Below, piece after piece: positions 1 through 29,227 of a DNA stretch of 36,192 nucleotides. The stretch lies in IMG/VR virus record IMGVR_UViG_3300044641_003963, positions 1-36,192 of that record; one strand, written 5' to 3'. The notes beneath the pieces are model-generated. The model saw only the letters and a program-made list of their open reading frames with translations, was not told the origin of the DNA and did not search any database. Position 1 is the first letter of the stretch, and each line of letters opens with the position of its first letter. The stretch is from a virus. The position numbers were made by a program, and so were the translations under genes.

Positions 1-126
1 TTGCGGCGTTTTTGCTTCTATCGGGGCTTAATTCTCGCCTGACACGGCAACCAATAGCGCCTTGTTAAACTCTAGGCGGTCCTTTTCCAGTTGGCGGGCC
101 GCTTGCTCGGGGGTCATATCCTCGGG
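1..126. repeat. Terminal direct repeat, left copy
   Basis: These 126 bases are identical to 36059-36184. The repeat carries the last codons of the loader-like gene (stop at 28-30). Its length, about that of a large assembler k-mer, and the lack of any site-like structure suggest a circular genome linearised by assembly rather than a biological terminal repeat. The unit genome would then be about 36,058 bp. Confidence 0.95.
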
Positions 127-693
127 GTCTTTGGCCGGGGCCTTGGTAACTTTGCGGGTCGCGTCGTTGATGTACTTTTGCGCTTTGGCGATTTGCTCGG
201 GGGTTAGTTGGGGGCGCTCGGGTTGCTCGGGATTTGCCTTGCGGTGGGCGGCTTGAGCGCGGTTCAGTAGGAGGACACGCTTTGACTGTTCGGGTTTAAC
301 GAGGTTCAGGATTTCCGCCGGGAACGGCATACGGTTGCCCCAGGTCCAAGACGCCTTAACCCGGCTAATGGCTAGGGTCAGAAGGTCACCCGGCAGCTTG
401 CCTAGCTGTTCGAGATAGATCGCTTGCGCCGTCTCCGGGTCTTGGCACGGTATCCCGAAGGCTTGGGCGAATTGAATGAGGTCTTTCATCGCTAGCACAT
501 AGTCGCGGGGGCTGGCCGGGGCCATCTGCGCCGATAACCTCGAAATCACCGTCGATAGTTGATCCTTCGTCGCCGGGGCCGGTTCCGTCGCCTCCCATTT
601 TTCCAAAGCCGAGAGCGTTTGCAAGTCCTGCGTAGTGGGCGGCGGCAATGTCCTGACCGCTTGGCGCGACGTTGGTTTTAGTGCGGTTGTCAT
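28..693 (-). CDS. Putative helicase-loader-like replication protein
   Basis: This encodes 221 aa, starting at an ATG preceded by a strong ribosome binding site (TGGAGGGG, 699-706). An in-frame start further upstream (744) lacks such a site. The middle contains a pattern (residues about 105-133) of alternating alanine, leucine and isoleucine followed by F-P-A-E-I-L, which resembles the 'ai...kFfPtpaEil' region of phage DnaB-loader proteins of the lambda P and G39P type. The C-terminal half is charged, rich in lysine, glutamate and proline, and probably helical or disordered. It lies directly downstream of the initiator-like gene, the usual O-P order, and overlaps it by 308 bp in another frame. 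The function is inferred from weak sequence pattern plus position; a generic replication accessory protein is the alternative. Confidence 0.6.
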   Translation of the reverse strand: MTTALKPTSRQAVRTLPPPTTQDLQTLSALEKWEATEPAPATKDQLSTVISRLSAQMAPASPRDYVLAMKDLIQFAQAFGIPCQDPETAQAIYLEQLGKLPGDLLTLAISRVKASWTWGNRMPFPAEILNLVKPEQSKRVLLLNRAQAAHRKANPEQPERPQLTPEQIAKAQKYINDATRKVTKAPAKDPEDMTPEQAARQLEKDRLEFNKALLVAVSGEN

Positions 694-1378
694 AAAACCC
701 CTCCAAAAGTCGGGTGAATGATTTTTCTTGAAGCATGAAGTCAAAGTCGGCTTTCCAGCCCCGGTCGTTTTTACCGGCGCAGAAGTCCGAAGCCCGGAGT
801 TTGGCTAGCGCTGCTTCCCACCCCGTCACCCCGCCACAGTCCGAAAGGCGTTTGGCAAGCTTGGCCCGTCTTGCGGTCGAAAGCCGCTGGCAAGGGGGGA
901 TGCCTATTTGTTGGGCGATAGCGTTGTAGGCGTCAACGGCAAGTGTCTCGGGTTTGCTTACTTCCTGCTTATTTGCCCGCGCTTCCGCTTCTAAAACCAC
1001 CTCCCCCTTTAGGGGGTATCTTTCTGTATCTGTACTATATGCCTCTGTCTCTGGTCTAGCATCGGCTATCGTTTGCTTGCCTTTGCTATCATCTGCTAGC
1101 GGATTTACGAGAAAACCGCATTTTATCAAGTCGTTAAGTTTTGGCTCATAGTCTAAATACGCCACCCGCTTAATGTACGCGGGATTGTTCGGAACCTTAC
1201 CGTCAGCCTTAGCGGCTATGACCATGCAAACGACCGCTAGCAGTTTGCTAGCATCGGATAGCATCACCCAATCTTGGCTAGATAAAATCTCGACATGGAG
1301 CTTAATCCACGGAGGGTTGCGGTCGCGGTAGTGCTGGTGCTTCCGCCAATTTTTAATCTCAAAATAGTCTGGTGGCAT
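386..1378 (-). CDS. Phage replication initiator-like protein
   Basis: This encodes 330 aa. The chosen ATG (1376-1378) follows an AAGAGG ribosome binding site; an in-frame start 34 codons upstream has none and adds a low-complexity tail. The first ~75 residues (M-P-P-D-Y-F-E-I-K-N-W onward) resemble the N-terminal winged-helix region of phage replication organisers, with a hydrophobic core around 'KLLAVVCMVIAA'. Residues about 165-240 form a second helical domain with a W-K-A-D-F-D-F-M-L-Q pattern typical of the C-terminal part of such proteins. By analogy it would bind the phage origin and recruit the helicase loader. The last ~100 codons are glycine- and proline-rich and overlap the next gene out of frame. 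A near-consensus promoter lies 140-170 bases upstream. Confidence 0.72.
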   Translation of the reverse strand: MPPDYFEIKNWRKHQHYRDRNPPWIKLHVEILSSQDWVMLSDASKLLAVVCMVIAAKADGKVPNNPAYIKRVAYLDYEPKLNDLIKCGFLVNPLADDSKGKQTIADARPETEAYSTDTERYPLKGEVVLEAEARANKQEVSKPETLAVDAYNAIAQQIGIPPCQRLSTARRAKLAKRLSDCGGVTGWEAALAKLRASDFCAGKNDRGWKADFDFMLQEKSFTRLLEGFYDNRTKTNVAPSGQDIAAAHYAGLANALGFGKMGGDGTGPGDEGSTIDGDFEVIGADGPGQPPRLCASDERPHSIRPSLRDTVPRPGDGASDLSRTARQAAG

Positions 1379-1516
1379 TGGTTGCCTCTTGTGTGATTCC
1401 AAAGTCTTGGGGCGGCTCGCGTGCTTGTCTCGGCTGGAACCAACCCCGGAGGAGGGCAAGAGGAGTACCGGACAACGCATCGCGACAAGGGGGAGCTACC
1501 CCGCCGCCTTCATGGG

Positions 1517-1545
1517 ATTATACGCTTATTGCAAGAGTGTATCAA
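1517..1545 (-). promoter_or_regulatory. Leftward sigma70-type promoter for the replication genes
   Basis: Read on the minus strand the site is TTGATA, 17 bases, TATAAT. The -10 is perfect, the -35 is 5/6, and the spacing is optimal. It lies in the 243-base gap without a convincing gene upstream of the initiator-like gene, and would give a leader of about 130 nt. The transcript would run through the replication genes and, on the circle, towards the terminase genes. Confidence 0.75.
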
Positions 1546-1566
1546 AGGAATTGCGGGTTATACCGA

Positions 1567-1585
1567 CACGCAACACGGGTGCGTG
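1567..1585. promoter_or_regulatory. Inverted repeat upstream of the replication promoter
   Basis: CACGCA and TGCGTG are separated by 7 bases. The centre lies about 30 bases upstream of the -35 hexamer of the leftward promoter, a position suited to an activator or repressor site. No T-run follows on either strand, so it is not a terminator. The role as a regulatory site is inferred. Confidence 0.35.
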
Positions 1586-1621
1586 GGGGCAAATAAAAAG
1601 GCGGTTACGTAGATTCCCGGC

Positions 1622-1672
1622 TCATCTCTCATCCCCCTGTGTCTGGTTCTGTGTGTAGTCTGGTATGGTCAT
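1622..1672 (-). CDS. Possible 16-aa leader-type peptide
   Basis: A 16-codon frame (M-T-I-P-D-Y-T-Q-N-Q...) starts 2 bases after the stop of the 42-aa gene. It has an AAGGA element overlapping the end of that gene, 6 bases before the ATG. It is hydrophilic and rich in glutamine and asparagine. Only the ribosome binding site and the tight spacing support it; chance is a real alternative at this length. Confidence 0.25.
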   Translation of the reverse strand: MTIPDYTQNQTQGDER

Positions 1673-1674
1673 AG

Positions 1675-1803
1675 CTATTCCTTCACACAGATGAAATTCA
1701 GTCCGTTCCTACGCGCGCCATGATGGGCGGTTAAGCGCCAGCATATCCAGCCTTGGGCGTGGTAGGCGGCTACGTCAGATTCGCGGGCGTAGATGATGAT
1801 CAC
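1675..1803 (-). CDS. 42-aa protein translationally coupled to the methyltransferase
   Basis: The GTG start overlaps the methyltransferase TGA in a GTGA junction, with a GAGG ribosome binding site 5 bases before it. The protein begins M-I-I-I-Y-A-R-E-S-D-V and ends F-I-C-V-K-E. The middle is rich in tryptophan, histidine and arginine (G-W-I-C-W-R-L-T-A-H-H-G-A-R-R). The strand-helix-strand look and the basic centre would suit a small nucleic-acid-binding or ferredoxin-like fold, but no family is recognised. The open frame extends further upstream inside the methyltransferase, but the coupled GTG is the only well-placed start. Confidence 0.55.
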   Translation of the reverse strand: MIIIYARESDVAAYHAQGWICWRLTAHHGARRNGLNFICVKE

Positions 1804-2684
1804 GATACCCTCGACAGCAAATCCTTGGCGTCGGCTTCCGCCGTTTCCATGTTGCGGATTGCCTGTTTGAAATAGGACGGCTTCAACTCCACCCCCATGC
1901 CATACCGACCAGCACAAACAGCGGTATGGACTTCGCTACCGATCCCGGCAAACGGGGTGAATACGATATCGCGGGGATTACTCCACAGGTCGATACAACG
2001 CCGGATCACGCCGAGCTGTAGTGGGGCAATGTGCCGCTCGTCGTTATTGTCCCGGCCCGCACGATATTGCAGCGTATCGCTCGGGTTAATATCCATCCAA
2101 ACAGGGGATGCGTATTTCTGCCAGACTTGGACCGGGAAACTCTCGTTAGTGTGGGAGATGGGTTCGGGGTTTTCTCCGGGCTTGCGAAGCGTCACAACGT
2201 AGTCCGCGATGCCCTGACGTGACAGGGCGCTGTCCTTCTTGATCTGTTTATGCAGCAACCCAATGGCCTTTGTGCGCTGCATGGCGGTTACGGGGTCTTT
2301 CCAGATTGTGACCCTCGAATGATAGATAAACCCTTCCTTTTCAGCGGCGCGGATTAGATCGCCGGGAAAGTCTGATAAACCAATAACGCCGTCCCGCACT
2401 TTGCTGGTAGGCAAGTCCATGCAGTGCATAGACATAAGGCGTCCAGGCTTTAGGATGCGGGACAACTCACGCAGGGCATATTGGAAATGATCAAAAAACT
2501 CCCCCGCGTTTTTGCAGTTGCCCATATCGCGGTCGGAATTGCTGTAAGTGTATAGCGACGCAAACGGCGGCGAAAATACCGAGTAATGCACCGACGCGTC
2601 AGGCAACCCCGCCATGACTTCTACGCAATCGCCGTTGTAGATAATCCAATCTTTGCCTTCGGATTGGTCTAATACGTTGCTCAT
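1800..2684 (-). CDS. DNA methyltransferase (N4-cytosine/N6-adenine, SPPF type)
   Basis: This encodes 294 aa. The catalytic motif IV is S-P-P-F at residues 38-41, following the N-G-D-C-V-E-V-M segment (17-24) that usually precedes it. The AdoMet-binding motif I is T-P-F-A-G-I-G-S at 243-250, and a G-V-E-L motif lies about 12 residues further on. Motif IV before motif I is the beta-class order of exocyclic amino methyltransferases. S-P-P-[YF] is more usual for N4-cytosine enzymes than D-P-P-Y, but target base and site cannot be read from sequence. The start overlaps the helicase stop in an ATGA junction. No restriction endonuclease partner is adjacent. A likely role is protection of phage DNA or regulation through methylation; this is inferred. 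Confidence 0.88.
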   Translation of the reverse strand: MSNVLDQSEGKDWIIYNGDCVEVMAGLPDASVHYSVFSPPFASLYTYSNSDRDMGNCKNAGEFFDHFQYALRELSRILKPGRLMSMHCMDLPTSKVRDGVIGLSDFPGDLIRAAEKEGFIYHSRVTIWKDPVTAMQRTKAIGLLHKQIKKDSALSRQGIADYVVTLRKPGENPEPISHTNESFPVQVWQKYASPVWMDINPSDTLQYRAGRDNNDERHIAPLQLGVIRRCIDLWSNPRDIVFTPFAGIGSEVHTAVCAGRYGMGVELKPSYFKQAIRNMETAEADAKDLLSRVS

Positions 2685-4069
2685 GCTGCCCCCATAAATG
2701 CTGGAATTTTGATCTGTTTAGCTGGATTGTAGTCTGCTTTCTCACGCTCCTGGCCGCGTATTTCCGCGCGGTTTAGATCGGCCATATGCGCTATCATGCT
2801 CTCGGCCATGCGTTCGGCGTCGGCTTCTTTGCGGCGTAGGTTTGCTACCACCGCGCCTTCAATCTCCGACGCGATAAAGTGAACATCAACCGGTTGCGTC
2901 TGCCCGAAGCGCCAGAACCTCCGGACGGATTGAAAGACCTGCTCAAAGCTATCGTTAAGCCCGACGAATACGGTATTCCGGCAATGCTGCCAATTTAGGC
3001 CAAACCCGCAGATCGAAGGCTTTGTGACCAGAACCCTCAACCGGCCTGACGCGAAGTCGTCTAGGATTTTTTCCTTTTTCTCTTGGCTATCAGATCCCCG
3101 CAATTGAACCGCGCCGGGGATGGTCTTTTCTAGAGCATCACTTTCGCTATTGAGATTGCACCAGCACACCCACGGTTTATCATTCCCGTTTACTAATTCG
3201 GATGCAGCCTCTACGCGGTCGTCAACAGTTGAACGTCGCGCGCTAATGCGTTCCGCAAGTGTCTGAGCCTCGATGGGGAATAGAAACCCCGTATCAATAT
3301 CCGCTTTGTATTCGACGGCCACAGAGTGCTGATGGGTTCTGAGGGGTGGCAGATCAAATCCGCCGTTCTCATATCCCAAGTCCGAAGGCTTGCGGAGCAT
3401 GACAGCCCAGGAACACATCCACTTCCAAAATTCGGATTCGGCGTGGCCCTTAAGCCTCCATTTCTGCGTATCTCCCCCGTCATGGACAAAGAACATGGCG
3501 AGCATTTCGACATAGGACATAACCCCCAAGAACTCAGCGTGGTTGCCCAATTCCATGAAGTCGTTAGGTGCCGGGGTCGCGGTCGCGGCAAGCCGAAACG
3601 GAACGGCCTGGCAATCCTCGATCAGCTGGGTTCGGGTCTTACCATCGTATGATTTAAGGATGCTGCTTTCGTCCAGAACCACGCCGATAAACTTGGACAG
3701 GTCAAAGTTATGCAGCTTCTCGTAGTTGGTTACGGTAATACCCGGCGTTACCTCTGACTGACTGATGCACTTCCGAATGGTGATGCCAAACTTCTCTCCC
3801 TCTTTTGCCATTTGTGCGGCCACCGCAAGCGGGGTGATAATAAGAACATCACCACCCGCCTCGGTGTGGATCGCATGCGCCCATGACAACTCCATGAGAG
3901 ACTTGCCCAGGCCGGTCCCGGCAAACACTGCGGACCGGCCACGACGCAACGCCCATGACACGATATCGCGCTGAAACGGAAACAGCTTATCATTCAGCGG
4001 CGGGATTGTTTTAAGCCCCGTAGGCTTGTCGATCAGCTTCTTGCGGTTTAGGTAGTGGGCGTATTCCAT
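2681..4069 (-). CDS. SNF2-type superfamily 2 helicase/translocase
   Basis: This encodes 462 aa. Walker A is G-T-G-L-G-K-S at 51-57, the Walker B-like box is D-E-S-S at 133-136, and motif III (T-A-T-P) is at 163-166. Near the C-terminus is the 'VRRFWRFGQTQPV' segment, matching the SNF2 arginine-finger motif VI (R-x-x-R-x-G-Q). It is a compact ATP-dependent dsDNA translocase without obvious accessory domains. It overlaps the DnaA-domain gene by 22 bp and the methyltransferase by 4 bp, so the three are co-translated. Pairs of SNF2 helicase and methyltransferase are frequent in temperate-type phages; their role is not established. A GGGAAG element precedes the ATG. Confidence 0.88.
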   Translation of the reverse strand: MEYAHYLNRKKLIDKPTGLKTIPPLNDKLFPFQRDIVSWALRRGRSAVFAGTGLGKSLMELSWAHAIHTEAGGDVLIITPLAVAAQMAKEGEKFGITIRKCISQSEVTPGITVTNYEKLHNFDLSKFIGVVLDESSILKSYDGKTRTQLIEDCQAVPFRLAATATPAPNDFMELGNHAEFLGVMSYVEMLAMFFVHDGGDTQKWRLKGHAESEFWKWMCSWAVMLRKPSDLGYENGGFDLPPLRTHQHSVAVEYKADIDTGFLFPIEAQTLAERISARRSTVDDRVEAASELVNGNDKPWVCWCNLNSESDALEKTIPGAVQLRGSDSQEKKEKILDDFASGRLRVLVTKPSICGFGLNWQHCRNTVFVGLNDSFEQVFQSVRRFWRFGQTQPVDVHFIASEIEGAVVANLRRKEADAERMAESMIAHMADLNRAEIRGQEREKADYNPAKQIKIPAFMGAA

Positions 4070-4374
4070 TCTTCTTCCCCAATTCTCTCTTTGTGTTTGT
4101 TTATGCCGTGAGCAACGGTCGTATGATGGCGCTTGCCGAGATATTTCCCGATCTCTGTTAGGGTGTGATGCGTTTCACAGTCCGCGCGGTACATAAAATG
4201 GTGCCGGGCTTTGACGTATTGGGCGCTGCGCCGGTCGCTCAATAAATGCTTTAGTGTGATCTGGTGTTGGGTGCAGATATCGCGGGCAATCTCTTGCAAG
4301 CTAATATAATTGGCGTTCCTGAATATCTCGGGGATATTCTTGCGCCCTGGTTCACCCCATGCAACCCCGATCAT
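4048..4374 (-). CDS. Stand-alone DnaA domain IV (DnaA-box-binding) protein
   Basis: This encodes 108 aa from the ATG that overlaps the upstream TGA (ATGA). A GTG nine codons earlier is possible. Residues about 30-95 match the DnaA C-terminal domain: the D-R-R-S-A-Q-Y-V-K-A-R-H segment aligns with the conserved basic region, and L-T-E-I-G-K-Y-L-G-K-R-H-H-T-T-V with the DnaA signature helix-turn-helix (eIG..fG.RdHtTV). There is no AAA+ ATPase domain; full-length DnaA is about 450-500 aa. It may bind DnaA boxes on host or phage DNA and so compete with or mimic host DnaA. The start at a 4-bp overlap indicates coupling in the operon. Confidence 0.82.
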   Translation of the reverse strand: MIGVAWGEPGRKNIPEIFRNANYISLQEIARDICTQHQITLKHLLSDRRSAQYVKARHHFMYRADCETHHTLTEIGKYLGKRHHTTVAHGINKHKERIGEEEWNTPTT

Positions 4375-4739
4375 ATCTGCACACACATAGCAGCGGCGCA
4401 CCCAATCACCGAGTTTTGCAAATAGCGTGCGGGTTTTCCTGACCGTGGTGCGTCTGCGCTGATCTTGCGGGCTTCTTCTCTCGTAACGTCCTCAAACCGC
4501 AACCCCATTATCACCATCATGGGAGGTTTAGCCTGAAACTTTCGCGCTTCTCTAGCGGCTTTGAGTGCAGACTTGTCAGCCTTGGCTCTCATGCGTAACG
4601 GCTGCACCCCGTTTCTAAGTAGGAACTCCCTAATAGCCTCATGCGATGCGCCCAGGTCGTATGCAATGTCAGTTATCGGCATTTCCTTCGCCAACAATAA
4701 CGCACGCTGTCTTGTCTCTGGTGTCCATTTAAACGGCAT
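4371..4739 (-). CDS. Small helix-turn-helix protein
   Basis: This encodes 122 aa with a strong ribosome binding site (AAGGGGGA) that overlaps the end of the upstream 38-aa gene. Residues 3-45 (W-T-P-E-T-R... I-T-D-I-A-Y-D-L-G-A-S-H-E-A-I) form an HTH of the kind found in small phage regulators. The tryptophan-threonine start and the I-A-x-x-L-G turn loosely recall the N-terminus of GcrA, but the C-terminal half is not the GcrA C-terminal domain. That half is basic and then ends in a hydrophobic, cysteine-containing tail. It probably acts as a DNA-binding regulator. The GcrA comparison is only a visual resemblance. Confidence 0.6.
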   Translation of the reverse strand: MPFKWTPETRQRALLLAKEMPITDIAYDLGASHEAIREFLLRNGVQPLRMRAKADKSALKAAREARKFQAKPPMMVIMGLRFEDVTREEARKISADAPRSGKPARYLQNSVIGCAAAMCVQI

Positions 4740-4741
4740 AG

Positions 4742-4858
4742 TTAATCCCCCTTAGGTCCAATGAAATAAACTGTAGCCCACGCGGCGAGTGTAAAAACGA
4801 TGATGAGAGTGCCGATAGTCCCGCCGGGCGTGAAATGGTCTAGGTAGTCTTGGATCAT
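4742..4858 (-). CDS. 38-aa single-span membrane protein
   Basis: The ATG overlaps the upstream TGA (ATGA) and is preceded by GGAG 7 bases away. The protein begins M-I-Q-D-Y-L-D-H-F and has one clear transmembrane segment (about residues 13-33: G-T-I-G-T-L-I-I-V-F-T-L-A-A-W-A-T-V-Y-F-I). It ends G-P-K-G-D. Its stop lies inside the ribosome binding site region of the HTH gene, so it is fully embedded in the operon. The family and function are unknown; small membrane proteins of this kind can act in superinfection exclusion or host-membrane interference. Confidence 0.6.
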   Translation of the reverse strand: MIQDYLDHFTPGGTIGTLIIVFTLAAWATVYFIGPKGD

Positions 4859-5049
4859 ATCGGCGCTCCGTAAATCTGATCTGTTTCCACCCTCTCAACC
4901 CGTTCCGCTTCTACATCAGCCTTAATAACCTCTAGGGCGGATTGTGAGAGGGCTTTTGACTTTCTGGCACGCTCGCCCTTAGCTGCTATGCGGTATTGCT
5001 CCCTAGCATTCATATAGGCTGTGTGGGCGGCTATCTGGCGGGGGGTCAT
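4855..5049 (-). CDS. Small hypothetical early protein
   Basis: This encodes 64 aa and is highly charged. An arginine- and alanine-rich helical N-terminus (M-T-P-R-Q-I-A-A-H-T-A-Y-M-N-A) is followed by K-G-E-R-A-R-K-S-K-A and an acidic stretch. The sequence looks like one long amphipathic helix. It starts in an ATGA overlap with the nuclease gene and ends in an ATGA overlap with the small membrane gene. No family is recognised. Confidence 0.65.
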   Translation of the reverse strand: MTPRQIAAHTAYMNAREQYRIAAKGERARKSKALSQSALEVIKADVEAERVERVETDQIYGAPI

Positions 5050-5426
5050 GCTACGGCCTCCAAAACTTCATCCAGAGACGTACAAACGTGAACCTCAAAG
5101 CCCAACACTCTCAGCGTTGAGTGGCAAATAAGCTGGGCATCTGATACAATTCCCTTGGGCGTTTTGAGTTCGATAAACACGACGCGGCCCGGCTTGATGG
5201 CTTGCAGATCGGGAAACCCGACGACTAGCCCCCGGCTTTTCATGATCGACATTTGCCGCGCGGTGCATTTGATCCCGTTGGCGCTCGCGCTCACGAACCA
5301 TCCAAGGTCACGCAACGCAGTCACGCAACGGCGCTGCAAATCGCCCTCGCTTTCGTCCGCGAAATACTTGCCAAGCGTTTTACGGGCTTCCGCTGCGGTC
5401 ATGTTTGATGGCATTTCGAGGGTCAC
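5046..5426 (-). CDS. VRR-NUC domain nuclease
   Basis: This encodes 126 aa if the GTG at 5426 is used. Internal ATGs at 5414 and 5402 are alternatives, and none of the three has a clear ribosome binding site. Residues 65-125 carry the PD-(D/E)xK core of the VRR-NUC family: G-F-P-D with catalytic Asp at 73, then V-F-I-E-L-K with Glu 86 and Lys 88. After this comes a helix with conserved-looking Q and L residues and a final V-H-V-C strand. Stand-alone phage VRR-NUC proteins are taken to cut branched or flapped DNA, fitting a role in replication or recombination intermediates. Its operon neighbours are the GapR-like protein upstream and small proteins downstream. Confidence 0.85.
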   Translation of the reverse strand: MTLEMPSNMTAAEARKTLGKYFADESEGDLQRRCVTALRDLGWFVSASANGIKCTARQMSIMKSRGLVVGFPDLQAIKPGRVVFIELKTPKGIVSDAQLICHSTLRVLGFEVHVCTSLDEVLEAVA

Positions 5427-5428
5427 GA

Positions 5429-5722
5429 TTAGGCAACCGTTTTCAGCGCAGCTTGGCCGAGGGGTGCGGTGGCAAAGTCGCCCAAGGCGTTTGTGTAAGC
5501 CTCCACAAGCGCGTCACGCTCCGCACGTTCGGCAGCGTCTAGCTTACGGTCGGCAATGACGCGGCGCATGATCTTGGTATCAAAACCTTCACTCTTGGCT
5601 TGTTTGAATACCTCAGCAATGTCCTCAGAAATCGCGGCCTTTTCATCGTTTAGCTTTTCGATGCGGGCAATAAACCGCGCAAGCGATTGATCCCCAATGC
5701 TGTTGTGTCCTATGTCGCTCAT
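5429..5722 (-). CDS. GapR-like (DUF2312) nucleoid-associated protein
   Basis: This encodes 97 aa. The sequence matches the DUF2312 pattern: an N-terminal helix with L-x-x-F-I-A-R-I-E-K-L-N-D-E-K-A-A-I, an acidic helix (S-E-D-I-A-E-V-F-K-Q-A-K), then G-F-D-T-K-I-M-R-R-V-I and a final helical hairpin. In Caulobacter, GapR forms rings around overtwisted DNA and supports topoisomerase action and replication. The family is essentially confined to alphaproteobacteria and their mobile elements. The protein has a normal length with an added alanine-rich tail (residues ~85-97). It may act on phage or host DNA topology during replication; this is inferred. The start is in an ATGA overlap with the gene upstream. 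Confidence 0.88.
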   Translation of the reverse strand: MSDIGHNSIGDQSLARFIARIEKLNDEKAAISEDIAEVFKQAKSEGFDTKIMRRVIADRKLDAAERAERDALVEAYTNALGDFATAPLGQAALKTVA

Positions 5723-5889
5723 GCTTCAACCTTTCTCGCTGGTAATTTCTTAATCTCGTTCCGCATCAGCCATTCGGCCTTTGCTTTTTCTTTCGCCTCA
5801 ACGTCACTTTTGCTGTCGGGCGGCGTTCTGAGTTTTGTGGAGAAGTCTAAGCAATGCCATTTTTTGTGTGGTGGATGGTGGCGGTTCAT
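5719..5889 (-). CDS. Small basic hypothetical protein, first gene of the left operon
   Basis: This encodes 56 aa from ATG 5889. A GTG 9 codons upstream would lie inside the terminator T-tract and is unlikely. The N-terminus holds a histidine cluster (M-N-R-H-H-P-P-H-K-K-W-H-C) and the remainder is a lysine-, alanine- and glutamate-rich helix ending L-P-A-R-K-V-E-A. It ends in an ATGA overlap with the GapR-like gene. It directly follows an intrinsic terminator hairpin, so its expression depends on read-through. No family is recognised. Confidence 0.55.
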   Translation of the reverse strand: MNRHHPPHKKWHCLDFSTKLRTPPDSKSDVEAKEKAKAEWLMRNEIKKLPARKVEA

Positions 5890-5900
5890 GGGTTCTCGGG

Positions 5901-5934
5901 GAAAAAGACCCCCCACGCCGTTAAGCGTGAGGGG
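5901..5934 (-). terminator. Intrinsic terminator or attenuator before the GapR operon
   Basis: On the minus strand a 10-bp stem (CCCCTCACGC with GCGTGGGGGG, one G-T wobble) and a 6-base loop TTAACG are followed by TCTTTTT. The wobble pairs only in the minus-strand RNA; on the plus strand it would be a C-A mismatch. That supports leftward use. It lies 11 bases before the start of the first operon gene, so transcripts from the switch region must read through it. Confidence 0.75.
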
Positions 5935-5985
5935 CGAGTTTAGGGAACGAAGGGCATGGCAACAAACTCACCCATACCCGGTAGG

Positions 5986-6108
5986 CACCCAACACCATGT
6001 CGGGCGATCCGGCGCGGAGAACGCCAGGATTGTTGCGCCCGGTGCGGGTGTAGCCGCTGCGGTGGGGGGACCGCTTTTCCGGGCGCGCGCGGCAGGGGAA
6101 TACCGCGC
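5986..6108 (-). ncRNA. Candidate structured leader RNA (three tandem hairpins)
   Basis: The 187 bases between the HTH regulator and the terminator can fold, on the minus strand, into three hairpins. The first is at 6087-6108 (GCGCGG/CCGCGC). The second is at 6059-6074 (GCGGT/ACCGC with a run of six C). The third is a long interrupted hairpin at 5986-6050 with five nested paired blocks: CACCC/GGGTG, CACC/GGTG, GGGCG/CGCCC, ATCC/GGAT and GGCG/CGCC around a 7-base loop. No good reading frame explains this base pairing. It could be a leader controlling the terminator downstream, or a small RNA ending there. A relation to the phage C4 antisense RNA class is possible but not shown. Confidence 0.5.
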
Positions 6109-6123
6109 ATTTCGTGGGGTGGG

Positions 6124-6327
6124 TCATTTCTGACACCCCTTTTCAAAATCAGCTTCCGTTATGCCCAAACGCTTAGAGCGTGCGGCCTGTAAGACCTCGG
6201 GCCAACGCCAGCGGGGGATTTTTTCTGTGATGCCCCAATACTGCACAACGGTGCGGTTTTTGTGGCCCAAAAGACGGGAGAGGGCTGTAACACCCCCTAG
6301 CTTTGCGATGATTTCAGCGTGTTTCAT
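6124..6327 (-). CDS. Small HTH regulator (Cro/carph-isopro type)
   Basis: This encodes 67 aa: M-K-H-A-E-I-I-A-K-L-G-G-V-T-A-L-S-R-L-L-G, then R-T-V-V-Q-Y-W, then I-P-R-W-R-W-P-E-V-L-Q-A-A. This is the compact HTH of small Cro-like phage regulators, frequent in alphaproteobacterial prophages (the 'carph-isopro' group). It would bind the dyad in the adjacent switch region and control both directions. The ATG has no ribosome binding site at normal spacing. A -10-like element ends 6 bases before it, so the message may be leaderless. A short protein like this has no cleavable CI-type C-terminal domain. Confidence 0.78.
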   Translation of the reverse strand: MKHAEIIAKLGGVTALSRLLGHKNRTVVQYWGITEKIPRWRWPEVLQAARSKRLGITEADFEKGCQK

Positions 6328-6333
6328 GCTGAC

Positions 6334-6361
6334 AGATTATCACCTGAAAAGGCTACGTCAA
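6334..6361 (-). promoter_or_regulatory. Leftward promoter candidate for the HTH regulator
   Basis: On the minus strand TTGACG, 16 bases, TAATCT. The -35 is 5/6 but the -10 is only 3/6; an overlapping GATAAT (5/6) would give 14-base spacing. Transcription would start at or just before the regulator ATG, giving a leaderless message as lambda cI has from PRM. The leaderless reading is inferred. Confidence 0.5.
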
Positions 6362-6366
6362 CTATT

Positions 6367-6384
6367 TTCGTTACACCTAACGAA
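6367..6384. promoter_or_regulatory. Operator dyad in the switch region
   Basis: A perfect inverted repeat, TTCGTTA-CACC-TAACGAA, lies between the two opposed -35 elements. A degenerate related copy (TCGTTTAGGGGTGTAA) lies at 6399-6414 and overlaps the rightward -10. The 18-bp dyad size suits a small HTH dimer such as the neighbouring regulator. Binding is inferred. Confidence 0.6.
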
Positions 6385-6389
6385 TTTTG

Positions 6390-6417
6390 TTTACAGGGTC
6401 GTTTAGGGGTGTAAGAT
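6390..6417 (+). promoter_or_regulatory. Rightward early promoter
   Basis: TTTACA, 16 bases, TAAGAT. The -35 is 5/6 and the -10 is 4/6. The start would be near 6424, about 20 bases before the first rightward gene. The spacer and -10 contain an operator-like half-site, so repression by the small HTH protein is plausible. Confidence 0.55.
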
Positions 6418-6442
6418 GGGGCCACAAACACGGAGAGAGAAA

Positions 6443-6583
6443 ATGACCAACACCAAAATCAGCCTTCGCATCCTCGCCGCCATCAACAGCGGCATGACCA
6501 TTGAACAGGCCATTAACCATGTTTTGGGGGCCGGTTCTTTTGAGCGCATCGCAGCCGACGTTTACAACGCGTTGCGGGCCTAA
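6443..6583 (+). CDS. 46-aa first protein of the rightward operon
   Basis: The ATG is preceded by GGAG 7 bases away and sits about 20 bases downstream of the predicted start of transcription. The sequence M-T-N-T-K-I-S-L-R-I-L-A-A-I-N-S-G-M-T continues with E-Q-A-I-N-H-V-L-G-A-G and ends Y-N-A-L-R-A. It looks like a compact three-helix protein, possibly HTH-like. First-gene position suggests an early regulator, but no family is recognised. Confidence 0.6.
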   Translation: MTNTKISLRILAAINSGMTIEQAINHVLGAGSFERIAADVYNALRA

Positions 6584-27125: not shown

Positions 27126-28061
27126 TTAGGTCAACTCGTCTCGGCGGTTGATACCCGCCGTTCCGTCATAAGGTTGAGTACCAGAGGCATCATTAAACAC
27201 ATCTGCCTCGAATAGAACCGTGGTGCCGTCGTCGGCATAGACCGTCATAACCCCTGTGGCTGGGTCGGTCTTTTGGGCGTTCTTCAAGATTTGCTTGATG
27301 ATGTAGAGGATGCCGCCAGCCTGTGTGGAACTGTATGTTCCGGGTAAGGTCGTGATCCAGGGGTCGCCCGCTGATCCGGCAGCAGCCAAAGCCTCGCCGG
27401 TTGATCCTGGGTTGTTGTGGCTTGCAAGGGTTTCATCCCACACCGCAGCCGCCACAGCAGCCGCAGTAAGGGCCGCGCCCGCGCTCGATATGTCGGCGTA
27501 CATAAACCCGATGCCGGTCAAGCTGGACTCTGCCGCCGTACCATTCCCCGACAATGCCGCCGTCAGGCTGGCGATGCCGGTCAAGGTGCCGTCAACGTCG
27601 CCGTTGGCGATAAGGTCGGCCAGCATGTTTAGACGTAGGGCCGCCGTTCCCGTCAGAGCGCCGTTTGCCGTCAGGTTGGCAATCATGCTGATGACGAGGC
27701 CAGCCGTACCGCTTGCCTCGCCGTTGGCTGTTAGGTCGGCTTCCATCAAGAGGCCGAGTAGCATGGACGCCGTGACGGTGTTCCCGCCGTCAATCCAGGT
27801 AGCCATCTCCCCGGCTTTCGACGGCAGGGCATAAGCACCGGGCGGATAATACCCACGCGGCTTTGCGGCAGTCTTAACGAGAACGACAGTCGTGCCGCCT
27901 GAGTTGTCCTGTTGGCTGAATTTGCGCCAGTCGGAATACTTCATAATGGAGGATTTAGTGGCAGTATTCGTCCCCGCACCCGAGGCGTGCGCCGTCGAGT
28001 TGCCCGCGAGCCATCGCCCACAAGTTTTGTTCAGAACCGAATAGTTACCAATCAGCGCCAT
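27126..28061 (-). CDS. Virion surface-type protein with internal repeats
   Basis: This encodes 311 aa. Residues about 105-190 hold four tandem imperfect repeats of about 18-22 residues built on A-x-L-x-[AG]-N-G-x-x-x-G-T-A. They are followed by A-A-V-W-D-E-T-L-A-S-H-N-N-P-G-S-T-G-E-A-L, a motif seen in many phage structural proteins. The N-terminal part is rich in Y, G and T. It is coupled to the next upstream gene by a TAATG junction. A head decoration or fibre-like role is inferred from place and composition. Confidence 0.62.
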   Translation of the reverse strand: MALIGNYSVLNKTCGRWLAGNSTAHASGAGTNTATKSSIMKYSDWRKFSQQDNSGGTTVVLVKTAAKPRGYYPPGAYALPSKAGEMATWIDGGNTVTASMLLGLLMEADLTANGEASGTAGLVISMIANLTANGALTGTAALRLNMLADLIANGDVDGTLTGIASLTAALSGNGTAAESSLTGIGFMYADISSAGAALTAAAVAAAVWDETLASHNNPGSTGEALAAAGSAGDPWITTLPGTYSSTQAGGILYIIKQILKNAQKTDPATGVMTVYADDGTTVLFEADVFNDASGTQPYDGTAGINRRDELT

Positions 28062-29227
28062 TACGACCAGCCGAACTCAATGTGGCCGTTGTAGTTGGAG
28101 TTGGTCGGGATGGTCGCAACACCGTTGTAGTGCAGCCAAACAAGGCACGCGCCGTCATACACTCTCGGCATGGACGGAAGCTGCGAGATAAACTCACGCT
28201 CCGCAGGTACGCCGATAGTTGTCATAGGCAGGGTGATGAGGGGCTTATAGGCGATCATGTTGTAAACGCCCGCCGTCACACCCGAGGACGCGAGGATCAC
28301 GTCTTGGATGGACTGCACCCCGGCGTCAGCGCCTTGGAGGGGGATTTGTGGGCCGAACTTGCCCGAACCTGTCCCAGAGAACGGAACTTGCAACAGGGGG
28401 GCGGTGGCATTATTTAAGGGCAACGCCGGTGATGTCGGCGTCTGACGCGAGCCTGTCCCGGCGCTGTTCGTGTAGGTGGGGCGGAAGGTCGTCGTGCCCG
28501 CCGATCCAGCCGTCGAAACCGCCATTGTCATCTGCACACCAGCACCCGAGGTATAGCGCGGCCAGCGGAAGTTGAAGGTATTAACTGCAACACCGCTGTC
28601 AGTATACGGGATGGCCGATCCAGCGACAGCGTTTGTCAGGCTCGTCGCAATGCGCGAAGTCGTGGAACTCTGGCGGATCGTCCAGTAGGTCGTGGTGTTC
28701 GCAATGCCGGTCGGGCGCGTACCGGCACCCGTTACCTGAAACGCCGTGAAGGTGTCCCAATCGGTCGTGGTAGTCATCAGCAAGTTGCCCGCGTCGTTCG
28801 AGAACGTCACGTTTTCAAACTGGGCAAAGGTCTTTGTGCCGGTCGAGTTAATTGTAGCGTTCGCCATCGTGGCGTAGGCCAGAAGGTCAACCAACATAAA
28901 CACCGAGGGCATCGTGGTAGCCGCCGCCGAGAAGGCCGAAGCGTTCAAGATGCACTTATAATCCGTAGCCGACGCCCCGACATCGCCGCCGTGCCAGATG
29001 CCACCGCCCGTCGCGGAACGGTCGTACATGGGCTTCCAGACCATCGTCGTGCCAGAGCCTAGCGCGGTATTAGCAGGAGGATTACCCGCGCCACCAGCCA
29101 AGCAAGACCACGTATTGACCACAACAGTTCCCGCCGTGGCGGTTTGCTTGTTCCAGTCCGCACGCCAGAATTTTCCGTTGGTGCTGATCTGGTTAATCAG
29201 GTCGTCTTGCGAGGTAAAGCCAGCCAT
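28061..29227 (-). CDS. Beta-rich virion protein, larger paralogue
   Basis: This encodes 388 aa, rich in threonine, glycine, alanine and asparagine. It shares several segments with the following 281-aa protein: P-R-Y-T-S-G-A-G-V-Q-M against P-R-Y-P-T-G-A-G-V-Q-I, T-Y-T-N-S-A-G in both, and P-L-Q-G-A-D-A-G-V-Q-S-I against P-L-Q-A-G-D-S-G-V-R-S-I. The first ~200 residues have no counterpart and may form an extra domain. It is likely a head-surface or capsid-decoration protein; the family is unknown. Confidence 0.65.
   Translation of the reverse strand: MAGFTSQDDLINQISTNGKFWRADWNKQTATAGTVVVNTWSCLAGGAGNPPANTALGSGTTMVWKPMYDRSATGGGIWHGGDVGASATDYKCILNASAFSAAATTMPSVFMLVDLLAYATMANATINSTGTKTFAQFENVTFSNDAGNLLMTTTTDWDTFTAFQVTGAGTRPTGIANTTTYWTIRQSSTTSRIATSLTNAVAGSAIPYTDSGVAVNTFNFRWPRYTSGAGVQMTMAVSTAGSAGTTTFRPTYTNSAGTGSRQTPTSPALPLNNATAPLLQVPFSGTGSGKFGPQIPLQGADAGVQSIQDVILASSGVTAGVYNMIAYKPLITLPMTTIGVPAEREFISQLPSMPRVYDGACLVWLHYNGVATIPTNSNYNGHIEFGWS

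Follow-up and report, generated by a model that had tools for sequence, protein, structure and literature searches.

The DNA analysed here, referred to as the window, is the whole length of the 36,192-base virus record IMGVR_UViG_3300044641_003963. Sequence inspection and domain searches place along its minus strand, in this order, a putative promoter, a cro-like gene, a structured RNA, an intrinsic terminator and a replication operon, and the rightward unit on the far side of the promoter region carries ERF and SSB-like genes. The features of the leftward unit are as follows:

6328..6443, both strands: putative divergent early promoter/operator region, with a -35-like TTGACG on the minus strand (6361-6356) and TTTACA...TAAGAT on the plus strand (6390-6417)
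6124..6327, minus strand: gene for a Cro/YdaS-like DNA-binding protein of 67 aa, the first gene of the leftward unit
5921..6127, minus strand: open frame of 68 aa, overlapping the cro stop codon (ATGA) and ending inside the terminator loop
6123-5902, minus strand: structured element, directly 3' of the Cro/YdaS-like gene and downstream of the divergent promoter region
5902..5935, minus strand: intrinsic terminator, a 12-bp stem with a G-U pair (5935-5908) and loop UUAA, then CUUUUU (CTTTTT, 5907-5902)
5719..5889, minus strand: first small gene beyond the terminator, 56 aa from ATG 5889, overlapping the gapR start; its codon score is ambiguous
5429..5722, minus strand: GapR-like DNA-binding protein (Pfam GapR_DNA-bd, 1.8e-26)
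28..5426, minus strand: remainder of the leftward operon, with a VRR-NUC nuclease, small ORFs, a helicase, an N6/N4 methylase and an O/DnaD-like replication protein

A promoter/operator function of the 6328-6443 region is suggested by its sequence, which includes a 17-nt inverted repeat (6357-6373/6378-6394) whose outer ends bear both of the -35-like boxes. The repeat could serve as the operator for Cro, and the transcript may carry almost no leader ahead of cro. The 67-aa protein gave a weak match to Pfam YdaS_toxin/P22_Cro, below the cut-off, and a match to PHROG 8008 (DNA-binding; 9.5e-6); the codon score of its gene is coding-like (0.14) and the fold of the gene is ordinary (z -0.22). Over its full length, the protein shares 37% identity with the product of an ORF that lacks annotation in Azospirillum phage Cd (L035 3001-3204). 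Searches of viral contigs, 50 related records and 385 genomes returned only weak matches outside the window's own phage group, and the best of the genome matches (L184) overlaps no listed ORF of at least 60 aa. Within the cro-like gene, approximately 65 nt before the first hairpin of the structured element, lies a boxA-like octamer, CGCTCTAA (6180-6173, minus strand), which could be there by chance; the window contains three such octamers, with 1.5 expected.

The terminator at 5935-5902 has the GC-rich stem (-22.8 kcal/mol, z -5.2) followed by a U run that is typical of intrinsic terminators. The initial annotation of this DNA had described it correctly, apart from placing it 11 bases before the first gene of the operon; the next ATG, at 5889, lies 12 nt past the U run. 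Its further statement that no promoter separates the two agrees with a promoter scan, which reported no promoter-like site between terminator and operon, and with the spacing itself, since 12 nt leave no room for one.

Fold of the structured element

A folding energy of -110.3 kcal/mol (z -4.7) was computed for the minus-strand sequence 6123-5895, a value that 200 shuffles all failed to reach. The structure is biased to that strand, with z values of -4.67 on the minus strand and -0.88 on the plus strand. When both strands were scanned in 902 segments of 160 nt, the most extreme z value (-5.97) belonged to minus 6160-6001; among 14,448 segments of 75 nt, none was more stable than minus 6107-6033 (-41.2). 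Most of the signal comes from the two hairpins nearest to cro, H1 and H2 (z -3.95 to -4.5); the stretch 6036-5940 alone has a z of -1.65. The predicted fold consists, besides the terminator, of:

6115-6111/5951-5947, minus strand: closing helix
6087..6108, minus strand: hairpin H1, 8 bp with loop UUCCCC, beginning 15 nt past the cro stop codon
6035..6086, minus strand: H2, 52 nt, an 8-bp stem adjoining H1 and bearing two inner hairpins (three-way junction)
5952..6030, minus strand: H3 (6030-6007), H4 (6006-5986) and H5 (5979-5952), predicted only, the conserved core being H1-H2

The presence of a structured RNA and an intrinsic terminator before the GapR-containing operon, as initially proposed, is thus borne out. 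The architecture first ascribed to it, three tandem hairpins of which one comprised 65 bases with five nested paired blocks, gives way to five hairpins and the terminator, with a branched H2. Elsewhere in the window, further very stable local folds occur at 13332-13173 (minus strand) and 28046-28130 (plus strand), within or across coding sequence.

Rfam searches of the whole window, and then of the locus at relaxed settings, yielded no credible match, and DNA searches for the element in phage records and in 50 related records returned short chance matches only. C4 antisense RNA is a structured phage RNA of the immunity region and to that extent resembles the element, but the suggested assignment to its family (RF01695) failed, there being no covariance-model match even at E values up to 10. 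The lack of a C4 match or of any Rfam family also counts against the idea of a stand-alone small RNA that would act in trans, arising by processing or from a start of its own inside cro. A very stable RNA of approximately 220 nt with an intrinsic terminator at its end would fit this description, but the promoter scan reports no sigma-70-like minus-strand site inside cro, and such an RNA is considered very unlikely. Least credible of all is a ligand-binding riboswitch, which the branched fold before a terminator might call to mind; no Rfam riboswitch matched, the element is positioned behind a gene and not at a 5' end, and it is conserved only in part.

The 68-aa open frame was also considered, a protein frame across the element having been named at the outset as evidence against an RNA. 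By codon usage this frame looks non-coding: its score is -0.147, compared with 0.137 +/- 0.082 for true genes, which is below the 1st percentile of true-gene pieces and coincides with the midpoint of the wrong frames, and it lacks the codon usage typical of a translated small gene or leader peptide. Chance alone gave an open frame of this length in 34% of shuffles, the translation matched no protein family in Pfam or PHROG, and the RNA structure is stronger than that of all 300 of 300 peptide-preserving codon permutations of the frame. It is probably not a normal gene.

Conservation in a related phage

A terminase search identified 80 relatives, among which the early region is poorly conserved. 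In one relative, L126, with identities to the window of 84% in the terminase, 70% in the portal and 54% in GapR, the layout is the same: a cro-like C-terminus, an ATGA overlap, a structured stretch (z -5.1), a terminator (14 pairs, -24.8 kcal/mol) and an operon with gapR. The two hairpins begin 17 nt past the cro stop in L126 and 15 nt past it in the window, and the pair tops the 75-nt stability ranking in both. A covariance model, R1, built from H1-H2 of the window alone, found a sole match in L126, full length and at the expected place (18842-18768; 22.5 bits, E 0.0028). Four control loci gave no match, and across 40 phage records no other score exceeded 17 bits. When the two elements were aligned, 97.8% of the pairs were kept and five double (compensatory) changes were counted, compared with none in slid controls, for a comparison of two sequences that were aligned by fitting them to the structure in the model. 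H1 is paired in L126 with two compensatory changes and one one-sided change, and the outer stem of H2 is kept with two compensatory changes. Conservation is argued from structure and position, as the two elements show little pairwise similarity in DNA or protein. The compensatory changes that the initial annotation had put forward as support for an RNA are therefore present, in the single relative L126. The element is a real, locally conserved structured RNA of the minus strand which, together with its terminator, lies behind cro.

A search of 289 genomes with R1 gave one match, of 30 bits, but this lay within a gene of 902 aa and proved to be false; scores of this model in GC-rich genomes consequently need context to count as evidence. 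The search filters can also lose true matches, and since L126 itself was dropped in a larger search for this reason, a negative R1 result is not strong. In the window, R1 matched only H1-H2, with no second copy. In L126, the stretch 18645-18566 (minus strand), in which a second hairpin directly follows the terminator, is among the most stable of that phage.

Stop signals close to cro also occur in other phages. Sinorhizobium phage phi2LM21 has a 13-bp terminator near cro (L036 3270-3320; -26.8), Paracoccus phage Psul1 a hairpin across the cro stop (L188 2703-2760; -23.5), and a more distant phage of gammaproteobacterial type (L128) a terminator at the cro stop; no obvious H1-H2 was seen in these three. 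A stop signal behind cro is thus a common plan, and what distinguishes the window and L126 is the abutting H1-H2 pair. In L128, the 190 nt before the terminator (3509-3303, minus strand) are mostly cro coding sequence and have a z of about -5, from which it follows that coding sequence can reach such values. Strong fold matches were also returned for L128, L136, L146, L148 and L166-L178 by terminator-anchored and sliding scans, and those inspected were coding or unrelated.

The occurrence of such cro-proximal hairpins and terminators in phi2LM21, Psul1 and L128 favours the main rival to a regulatory role, a plain attenuator in which the element would be the stable 3' end of the cro mRNA, the terminator would be leaky, and the operon would live on constant read-through with no regulated antitermination. 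The role of the hairpins would then lie in protecting or processing the short transcript of cro, perhaps with release of a small RNA, and 3'-end protection could equally account for stable hairpins. A simple terminator, however, does not need 74 nt of genome-topping stability some 100 nt upstream, kept by compensatory changes, and this explanation is judged to be somewhat unlikely.

The rival that ranks next is translation-coupled attenuation, whereby ribosomes that have completed cro would re-start at the ATGA, translate the 68-aa frame and melt both the hairpins and the terminator, such that read-through would report translation. The ATGA overlap is preceded by purine-rich sequence in both the window and L126, an ATG at the cro stop is found in phi2LM21 and Psul1 as well, and the stop codon of the 68-aa frame falls in the terminator loop. 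The corresponding frame in L126 extends for 124 codons and crosses the L126 terminator, and with its intermediate codon score (-0.017) it might conceivably be translated. Weighing against such coupling are the score of the window frame, typical of wrong frames, the openness of the L126 frame by chance in 11% of shuffles besides the higher figure for the window, and the protein similarity of the two frames, which does not rise above chance; with the L126 frame as protein query, only L126 itself was returned. Coupling to translation is accordingly regarded as improbable.

Proposed function and relation to known systems

Given the order of features on the minus strand, the H1-H2 element may act in cis to control read-through from cro into the leftward replication operon, a reading that is favoured here tentatively and at somewhat less than even confidence. 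Control of the operon by read-through was also part of the initial annotation and stands as the best reading. The accompanying view of the RNA as a leader does not, because a Cro/YdaS-like gene precedes the element on the same strand, and the promoter of that gene would serve the unit as a whole. Polymerase from the leftward early promoter would thus transcribe the cro-like gene, the compact structured RNA with H1-H2 (its first 74 nt) as the conserved core, and the intrinsic terminator. Some transcripts would by default stop at the terminator in vivo, leaving a short cro mRNA whose 3' end is protected. The H1-H2 RNA, presumably co-transcribed with cro, would either act on the elongating polymerase (put-like) or bind a host or phage protein (nut-like), and the resulting antitermination would increase read-through so that GapR, the nuclease, helicase, methylase and replication genes are expressed at the right level and time. 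No choice is made here between put-like, RNA-only action and nut-like, protein-assisted action; an N-like or other known antiterminator protein was not recognized among the early genes scanned. A more specific proposal, that H1-H2 represents a new, protein-independent family of antitermination RNAs, put-like yet unrelated in sequence and found in GapR-carrying phages, presumably of Alphaproteobacteria, is doubtful. If true, a second, unrelated put-like family in another host lineage would reveal whether RNA-only antitermination is widespread, and the element is compact enough for direct testing. Were it merely an attenuator, it would still document how expression of the replication operon is set in little-studied phages.

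Among known systems, phage lambda has cro, nutR, the tR1 terminator and the replication genes in that order, and the window repeats the sequence of cro, RNA signal, terminator and replication genes. Lambda tR1 is Rho-dependent, whereas the stop in the window is intrinsic. With the Caulobacter GTA, polymerase must get past a GC-rich terminator that follows the leading gene of a phage-like cluster; GafZ, a protein loaded at the promoter, is involved there, and no RNA element is (PMC11150451). The terminator past the first gene is common to both systems, and the structured RNA sets the window apart.

The put RNAs of phage HK022 measure approximately 70 nt and contain two stem-loops; they target the zinc-binding domain of the polymerase beta' subunit without dedicated protein factors, and approximately 270 nt separate putR from the PR start upstream of it (PMC9378689). 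Membership of H1-H2 in this group is not claimed. HK022 has two put sites and the window one copy of H1-H2; with its one R1 match, the window does not present copies behind both early promoters. In GC content and stability, H1-H2 also far exceeds the putR region of HK022, whose z of +0.75 indicates that extreme stability is in itself no mark of put. A search of HK022's own put region with Rfam 15 gave no match, there being no put model in Rfam, and hence the absence of an Rfam match for the window element says nothing on put. The likeness to putR lies in position and architecture: the element is found behind cro and ahead of the first terminator, as putR lies between cro and tR1 in HK022, and H1-H2 comprises two adjacent stem-loops in 74 nt, approximately 220 nt from the presumed start of transcription.
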